A stretch of 64,000 bases of DNA from Lepisosteus oculatus (Eukaryota; Chordata; Actinopteri; Semionotiformes; Lepisosteidae): NCBI RefSeq assembly GCF_040954835.1, contig NC_090696.1:68385722-68449721 (forward strand). Reading direction: 5' to 3'. Position numbers and translations under genes: made by a program. Under the pieces are notes generated by a model. The model searched no databases. It was not told the DNA's origin and worked only from the letters and a program-made list of their open reading frames with translations. Shown in pieces: positions 3,001-4,681 of the stretch (position 1 is its first letter; each line of letters begins with the position of its first letter).

Positions 3001-3865
3001 TTTTAAGCATACTCCTCTTGCTGTAATCCTGGATATTACCGTGTGGAGTATGGCTTTGGATAGAACCAGACGAGTGTTAAACCAATGCTGGGCTTAGTTT
3101 TGGTGAAAAACCCTCGGACAGCATGCTCCTCCAGGGTATTCTGCCATATCTGTGGAAGGGAAATTCCAGGCTCCTCCTTGGATCAACTGGACTTAAATTG
3201 CGAACATTCATGTGCATACTAAGTATAATTGGTTATTTACTATTTAGTATCTTCCTTATAAATGGCAGAACATCAATGTGCAGAGTGCAAATCAGATATT
3301 TGTACTGTACATCCATCATTATTCTTACACTTTCATGTTTCAGAATTTGAACCTGTTATGGTGTTTTAGGCAGGTTTCTGAAAGTTTTTACTTTAAGCCA
3401 TGATCTTCAGGTAAAAAAAAAAAGAATTTTGTCACAGAAAAAACACAGTACACAAAATAAATGGCCACTAGGAGCAGCAATTGCTGGCCAGATGCTGCAG
3501 TGCAAAACATGCCTGGCTCTTAAAAACCAGGTACCTTCTGGGTAGATCTGAGGAGAGCAGGTTGCTTCTCAAACTCTTAAGTCAGTTTTCCTGTGAATGC
3601 ACCATGGAACATAAGTTGCCTTTCTTTGCTATTTCTTTGCTGGTTTGGGATGAAACAGGAATTTATTGTACTGTATTTCAGAATCCTCGGTCTTGTGTTT
3701 TTCTATGATGCCATGGCTGCATGTTCTGTTTGACTGACCTGAATATTGTATTTTCCAGCGGCTTTGATCCAGCAGGCAACCACAGTCAAAAACAAGGATA
3801 TCAGGAAATTCCTGGATGGCATTTATGTCTCGGAGAAGGGAACAGTTGTGGAACCAGAGCAATAA
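1..3865 (+). CDS. rpl9: Ribosomal protein L9 (uL6), 3' part of gene, main isoform
   Basis: 60S ribosomal protein L9 (uL6), a cytosolic large-subunit protein. Visible coding exons are 1-83, 1521-1616, 2044-2176, 2683-2763 and 3759-3865 (stop TAA 3863-3865). Each internal junction has GT-AG ends and matching phase. The translation begins [20 protein letters not shown] and follows human RPL9 through [44 protein letters not shown] and [16 protein letters not shown], ending VVEPEQ. About 27 N-terminal residues (remembered human MKTILSN... to VIV) and the promoter lie left of the window. The AATAAA at 3861-3866 overlaps the stop codon. A GT at 3875 (TAAG/GTTAGA) could also splice this exon onward. 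A second version of the last exon lies at 4547-4656. Identification is very secure; which last exon is used is open. Confidence 0.96.
228..425 (+). mobile_element. Decayed 3' end of a non-LTR retrotransposon in the first visible rpl9 intron
   Basis: The piece contains GTGCATTCACAACTGAGAA, CGCAAAGAGTTGTGGGAGTG and, near the end, TGGGCCAAATGGC. The same ordered words occur at 46030-46240, where the reading [12 protein letters not shown] resembles the C-terminal end of LINE polymerases. A shorter stretch in the opposite orientation follows at 440-500 (CACTTGGCTGGGTGACTTGT), so two fragments lie face to face. The intron at 84-1520 otherwise shows nothing I can name. Confidence 0.5.
440..500 (-). 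mobile_element. Short reverse-oriented fragment of the same retroelement family
   Basis: CCACTTGGCTGGGTGACTTG followed by TTCCAGGCACTCACCACC reads, on the minus strand, like the part of the family that contains the 'GTTGTGGGAGTGTGGAACA' segment. With the piece at 228-425 it forms an imperfect inverted pair in the intron. Confidence 0.35.
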
Positions 3866-3866
3866 A
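3861..3866 (+). terminator. Possible polyadenylation signal overlapping the rpl9 stop codon
   Basis: AATAAA is formed by the last codon and stop (CAA TAA A). A T-rich run follows at about 3901-3912. This could end transcripts on the first terminal exon, although a signal overlapping the stop leaves a very short 3'UTR. Confidence 0.4.
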
Positions 3867-4546
3867 CCTCTAAGGTTAGAATGTGCTTTATTACCAAAGC
3901 TTTTTTTTTTTCCTTGCCCTTTTGAGCAATTAAGTGCCAAGTGTGTCCTTGGTAATTTGTGCCACATTATGTGATGTGCAACACTCCAGGTGTATATTCA
4001 AAATATTATCTGGGAAAACAGGTCCAGTGCGTGCAAAAAACTAGAATATATGCAAGATTTCAAAGAAAAGTCAGGAGAAATATAAGCACCAGAGTATTTG
4101 TTAGTTGTTCTTGGATAACTGTTGAGTGTAAAATGTTTGGAATTGGAAAGCTTGAATTTTTTTCCTGGCTTCAAGATGAATTTTTGATTGGTACCTCAGA
4201 ATTTAAATGCTTTTTGCCAGCTCTAGTCCCGGAGAGCCGAAGCTGAGCTTAATTAACTGAGGTTGACACCTTGCTCACTGTTCTTTTTAGGCTCCTTGTA
4301 AAACCTGAAGAAGATTCCATGGGCAAAACGTCTGCTTTTTATTTTTCAGTGTGGTATTAACATTTATATTTCTAAAACCCACAGGAAGATATTTCTCACA
4401 CCTGGGTTTAACACTTCTTAGTTTAGACAGTATAAACATTAGGGTTAAAAGGTAATAAATTGTCAGACTTTCAGAATTGTGGTGTAAAACTGAGATAGAT
4501 TGCTGCTGGGTTTTCTGTGTTGGTAATCTGTGCTTCTCCTGTACAG

Positions 4547-4656
4547 CTGCCCTGATCCAACAAGCTACAACAGTGAAGAAGAAGGATATCCGAAAATTCC
4601 TGGATGGCATTTATGTGAACAAGAAGACAACTGTTATTGATTTGCACAGCGAGTAA
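4547..4656 (+). CDS. rpl9: Second, alternative last coding exon of rpl9
   Basis: This is a tandem copy of the rpl9 terminal exon. It has its own acceptor (TGTACAG, ending 4546) and the same entry phase as the exon at 3759, so the exon ending at 2763 could join either. It reads [19 protein letters not shown], then DGIYV, then a divergent tail [12 protein letters not shown] and TAA at 4654-4656. Over the first 24 codons it differs from the upstream copy by 11 synonymous codon changes and one replacement (Asn to Lys); only the C-terminal tail is different. An AATAAA follows at 4676-4681. It could be a mutually exclusive last exon giving an L9 with another C-terminus, or it could act as a 3'UTR exon if the upstream copy is spliced onto it from the GT at 3875. 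The upstream copy has the human-like SEKGTV tail and so looks ancestral. Confidence 0.8.
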
Positions 4657-4675
4657 AATCTGTCCTCTTTGAGAC

Positions 4676-4681
4676 AATAAA
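4676..4681 (+). terminator. Polyadenylation signal of rpl9 after the second terminal exon
   Basis: Canonical AATAAA 20 bases after the second stop codon, followed by T- and GT-rich sequence (TTTTTTGCC, then AGAGTTTGTTTTC). It fits the short 3'UTRs typical of ribosomal protein genes. Confidence 0.75.

Follow-up and report, generated by a model that had tools for sequence, protein, structure and literature searches.

A probable old tandem duplication of the last coding exon of rpl9 in Lepisosteus oculatus, with a second copy that may serve as an alternative ending of ribosomal protein L9

Small exons near the end of RPS24 are included in or skipped from the mature transcript, and the mutually exclusive exons of C. 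elegans unc-32 and of insect Mhc are internal exons. The RPS24 (eS24) splice isoforms are described as differing in their C-terminal residues and as tissue-biased (PMC12931454), and RPS24 is a known precedent for a ribosomal protein whose C-terminus is varied by splicing. RPL3L, RPL10L and RPL39L are presented as tissue-biased duplicates among the ribosomal protein genes (PMC7671327). For uL6, a C. elegans study reports that a transgenic protein with a C-terminal 3xFLAG enters translating ribosomes and leaves germ cell functions unharmed, and it describes uL6 as lying near the A-site with a peripheral attachment (PMC7642943); the tolerated C-terminal tag and the peripheral position fit a changeable tail. 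Our literature search found no paper on an alternative last exon of rpl9 or on duplication of an rpl9 exon.

The window considered here is the whole analysed stretch of 64,000 nucleotides of the Lepisosteus oculatus sequence NC_090696.1 (68385722-68449721, plus strand). It opens within the rpl9 gene, the features of which are as follows, with positions counted in the window unless the upstream sequence L007 is named:

L007 9218-9263, upstream of the window: ATG exon of rpl9, placed on the basis of a frame that joins to the full L9
L007 9690 (start), just upstream of the window, with the 3' part at window 1..83, plus strand: coding exon of rpl9 next after the ATG exon, the frame of which joins to the 192-aa L9
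1521..1616, plus strand: exon 4 in the numbering used here, coding
2044..2176, plus strand: exon 5, coding, with a single genomic match
2683..2763, plus strand: exon 6, with a donor after 2763 that is common to 7A and 7B
3759..3865, plus strand: exon 7A, coding part including the stop, with an 11-residue tail like that of the closest solved L9 chains
3866..3874, plus strand: stretch of 7A after its stop, ending in the donor-like CTAAG/GTTAGA
4291..4459, plus strand: candidate, unproven 3'-UTR exon of the A form, with an acceptor at 4291 and AATAAA at 4454-4459
4547..4656, plus strand: exon 7B, coding part including the stop, with a 12-residue tail and an acceptor ranking 6/362
4676..4681, plus strand: AATAAA downstream of 7B, with 19 bases between the 7B stop and the signal
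5044..5110, plus strand: what may be a decayed duplicate of the acceptor region at 4291, aligning weakly with 4262-4319

When joined as predicted, the upstream exons, the window pieces and 7A encode an L9 protein of 192 residues, and the same pieces with 7B encode one of 193 residues. Exons 7A and 7B each begin directly after an AG, are entered in the same phase, continue the same frame and possess their own stop, and in these respects, as in the coordinates and acceptors of both exons, the initial annotation proved accurate. In the repeat-finder output, 3756-3852 is matched to 4544-4640 with 77% identity, and the two are tandem exons in the sense of adjoining homologous exons with equal entry phase and separate stops. 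The description of the duplicated unit as the last exon applies to 7A insofar as it ends the coding sequence with its own stop, but 7A may not be the final exon of its own mRNA, as there is a donor-like site at 3874 and a candidate acceptor at 4291.

Elsewhere in the window a Klotho-like gene, presumably klb, lies on the minus strand at about 6400-14550 (an extent judged by eye) and faces rpl9; its frame at 7949-9271 contains a glycosyl hydrolase family 1 domain. Further along are two plus-strand pieces of rfc1, one with a BRCT domain (31814-32209) and one matching replication factor C subunit 1 (40673-41011), and a minus-strand exon of wdr19, within 49388-49681, that matches WD repeat-containing protein 19. 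Neither Rfam, run over the whole window at the gathering threshold, nor ARAGORN returned any match (0 in each).

Searches of the complete genome (1,200,105,466 bases in 813 contigs), in which the best candidates were scored, point to a single rpl9 gene. The L9 protein gave 6 matches among 7 scored candidates, all within rpl9; the 7B peptide and the exon 7B DNA each recovered 7A and 7B only (2/2 scored candidates in both cases); and the one scored candidate for exon 5 DNA (1/1) also fell within rpl9. Among these best candidates no second rpl9 locus was detected in the 1.2-Gb genome, and no rpl9 retrocopies, which would be fossil transcripts, were found with the L9 protein, the 7B peptide, exon 5 DNA or 7B DNA. 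As no second locus was detected, a functional 7B could come into use only through splicing inside rpl9 itself. A 64-residue peptide spanning exons 6 and 7A was also compared with viral contigs (11 pattern-matching stretches) and genome contigs (98), and yielded no confirmed relative in either.

The two copies are spaced 788 bases apart. On the corresponding diagonal the upstream flank score is reached by 0/132 control offsets and the downstream score by 3/127, and the anchored global flank scores are reached by 8/300 and 32/300 random windows. The best unbanded flank alignments are equalled by 169/500 shuffles upstream and 108/500 downstream, and those of the piece at 4281-4480 by 101/500 and 41/500 shuffles. 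Homology of the flanks is thus faint, and weak by the shuffle and random-window tests. These comparisons suggest that 7A and 7B likely arose through an old tandem duplication of a segment. The amount of divergence and its pattern, to which we now turn, lead us to reject both chance homology of 7A and 7B and duplication in the assembly as the source of 7B.

Over the 24 codons shared by 7A and 7B, 12 differ, with 11 synonymous changes and one replacement (N to K), exactly the count given in the initial annotation. By the NG86 method this core has a pS of 0.72 and a pN of 0.018. The tails had been said to differ completely, which is an overstatement: 3/11 aligned residues are identical (K, T and V), and the tails are therefore diverged homologues rather than unrelated sequences. 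The other 8/11 residues are replaced, with V/I and E/D among them being conservative, and the tail as a whole (pS 0.58, pN 0.54) displays almost no net constraint between the copies, which counts against the retention of 7B. Consequently, the proposal that both copies are under selection, for which dN/dS was computed between the two copies of this genome, holds for the 24-codon core but not for the nearly unconstrained tail. For the shared 24 codons of both copies, selection for protein sequence is well supported by this comparison.

With the 13 core nucleotide differences given, 0/20,000 unconstrained simulations had one replaced codon or fewer; this null is too harsh because it places all changes on one copy, and we replaced it with a fairer simulation in which copy A accepts synonymous changes only and copy B is free for the final part of its branch. 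Under full constraint the latter yields on average 12.1 synonymous codons at 0.6 changes per site and branch and 9.8 at 0.4, against the 11 observed. With 7B dead since the duplication, one replacement or fewer arose in 0/400 runs at each of five divergences, and such a long-dead copy is ruled out. Death over the last 20% of the 7B branch gives this outcome with P 0.0175 when each branch has 0.6 changes per site and with P 0.0875 when it has 0.4; death over the last 10% gives P 0.18 at 0.6. These outcomes indicate that during most of its history the core of 7B was under selection at the protein level. The earlier argument that drift in a dead copy would not spare the amino acids in this manner is accordingly sound for death since the duplication, but not for death in the last 10-20% of that history. 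This leaves room for a reading in which 7B functioned as an alternative exon through most of its existence, lately lost its function and is now a fresh relic. The simulations allow freedom for the last 10%, and for the last 20% at the lower of these two divergences, and the almost free divergence of the tail is of a piece with it; against it, the acceptor, frame, stop and AATAAA of 7B are all present, and we regard it as unlikely.

Change is distributed unevenly along the core. Codons 1-12 have changed at 10/12 positions (9 synonymous, 1 replacement), in contrast to 1/11 of codons 13-23 (3794-3826 in 7A and 4582-4614 in 7B). A scan permutation over all 24 codons gives P 0.0074, and Fisher's test gives P 0.0006 for a split that was picked after viewing the data and that excludes the changed codon 24. 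On account of this unevenness dS is not a clean clock. The near-unchanged codons could reflect a conversion tract, or a constraint at the RNA level such as a splicing enhancer. It is conceivable, by extension, that gene conversion or recency made the copies alike, with the sparing of amino acids owing nothing to selection on 7B. The near identity of codons 13-23 speaks for this, but conversion does not explain the 9 synonymous changes and single replacement in codons 1-12, and the flanks are almost unalignable; we therefore consider this account highly improbable.

At the protein level the Pfam domain Ribosomal_L6 (PF00347) is complete in both predicted isoforms, with 113.2 and 112.2 bits against a cut-off of 27; in both the match spans residues 99-178 and covers positions 1-80 of 80, and its end at residue 178 falls inside exon 7. 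The best solved relative of both isoforms is the 60S ribosomal protein L9 of 7oya (chain H1), which we take to be from zebrafish. The 20-residue ending encoded by 7A is that of all L9 chains displayed among the closest solved relatives, presumably vertebrate ones. The N, S, E and G that are replaced in 7B are invariant in all of these displayed chains, and this too counts against 7B. At the same sites, the KKK of 7B is found in the uL6 chains 9h3g and 3jcs, presumably of a plant and a trypanosomatid respectively, and the KTT of 7B in 4v6w and 9bh5, presumably of a fly and a worm. The first residue of the 7B tail, N, is not seen in the five displayed uL6 chain alignments. The start of the 7B tail is more basic than that of 7A.

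An examination of the signals at the 3' end, scored over 1-5300 with a generic matrix of approximate values so that scores and ranks are rough, suggests how either ending might be chosen. The acceptor of 7B (9.4, rank 6/362 AG sites) scores above that of 7A (6.1, rank 23/362), and the acceptor at 4291 is close to it (9.4, rank 7/362); AGs at 4702 (10.3) and 2837 (9.6), which are not known to be used, outscore that of 7B, and rank alone thus proves nothing. The donor-like site after the 7A stop, at 3874, scores 6.35 (rank 11/366 GT sites), and no good donor was found just after 7B, all GTs in 4600-4740 scoring at most 1.9. AATAAA occurs at 3861, 4454 and 4676, the first of these (3861-3866) overlapping the stop codon of 7A; the G+T fraction of the next stretch is 0.56 after the signal at 4676, versus 0.63 after those at 3861 and 4454. 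Another donor-like site, AAG/GTAATA after 4451 (score 6.1), overlaps the AATAAA at 4454, and U1 binding and polyadenylation could be in competition at 4449-4459. The mRNA of the A form may end by its own signal, through the UTR exon at 4291, or with 7B as UTR, and the B form would have a simple and compact 3' end. If 7A were skipped and exon 6 joined to the candidate UTR exon, the predicted L9 would be cut to 160 residues.

The availability of these sites raises another alternative, namely that 7B is mainly a 3'-UTR exon of the A mRNA, entered by a junction from 3874 to 4547 and ended by the AATAAA at 4676, with the coding form minor or absent. Both the donor-like site at 3874 and the good acceptor at 4547 are suited to this, and a stop only 9 bases before an exon junction is not expected to trigger mRNA decay. 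Use as UTR alone would nevertheless not make 11/12 changed core codons synonymous, and separate ends for the A form are offered by the acceptor at 4291 with the AATAAA at 4454, or by the AATAAA at 3861. We judge this alternative decidedly unlikely.

We instead consider it probable that the 3' end of rpl9 underwent an old tandem duplication and that selection has maintained 7B as an alternative last coding exon. In our reconstruction of the order of events, the duplicated segment would have run from the end of intron 6 through coding exon 7 and intron 7, perhaps reaching into a UTR exon. The first copy, 7A, would have stayed the canonical end of L9, and 7B, with no good donor directly after it and an AATAAA shortly past its stop, would have been kept as the alternative last coding exon. 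Exon 6, from its donor after 2763, would join 7A to give the 192-aa L9; alternatively, with 7A skipped and polyadenylation before 4547 bypassed, it would join 7B to give the 193-aa form. The weaker acceptor of 7A may help the choice of 7B by such skipping, and, more speculatively, U1 bound at the donor-like site after 4451 might silence the AATAAA at 4454 and thereby favor 7B. The analysis establishes the homology, phase and frame of the two exons, selection on their shared codons and a single detected locus; we infer the sequence of events, the splicing of 7B into mRNA, the skipping, and any functional consequence for the ribosome.

A bolder and doubtful extension of this proposal is that two kinds of large subunit, with different uL6 C-termini, are made through an ancient switch in the splicing of a single-copy gene, one that varies with tissue or stage and has long been kept by selection. 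Arguments for ribosome heterogeneity have often relied on paralogous genes. Were a core ribosomal protein encoded by a single-copy gene to have a conserved alternative last coding exon, this would be a clean natural test, because the promoter and the rest of the protein are the same and only the end differs; isoform-specific peptides would permit direct counting in ribosomes.

The predicted arrangement in rpl9 can be set beside the known systems. As with RPL3L, RPL10L and RPL39L, there would be two versions of one ribosomal protein; unlike those separate genes, the versions of L9 would arise from one gene by splicing. Like the mutually exclusive exons of unc-32 and insect Mhc, versions of one exon would be chosen by splicing in rpl9; in contrast to those internal exons, both rpl9 copies have stops and each is a last coding exon. 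Finally, where RPS24 includes or skips small exons, rpl9 would exchange its canonical last coding exon for an entire duplicate of it.
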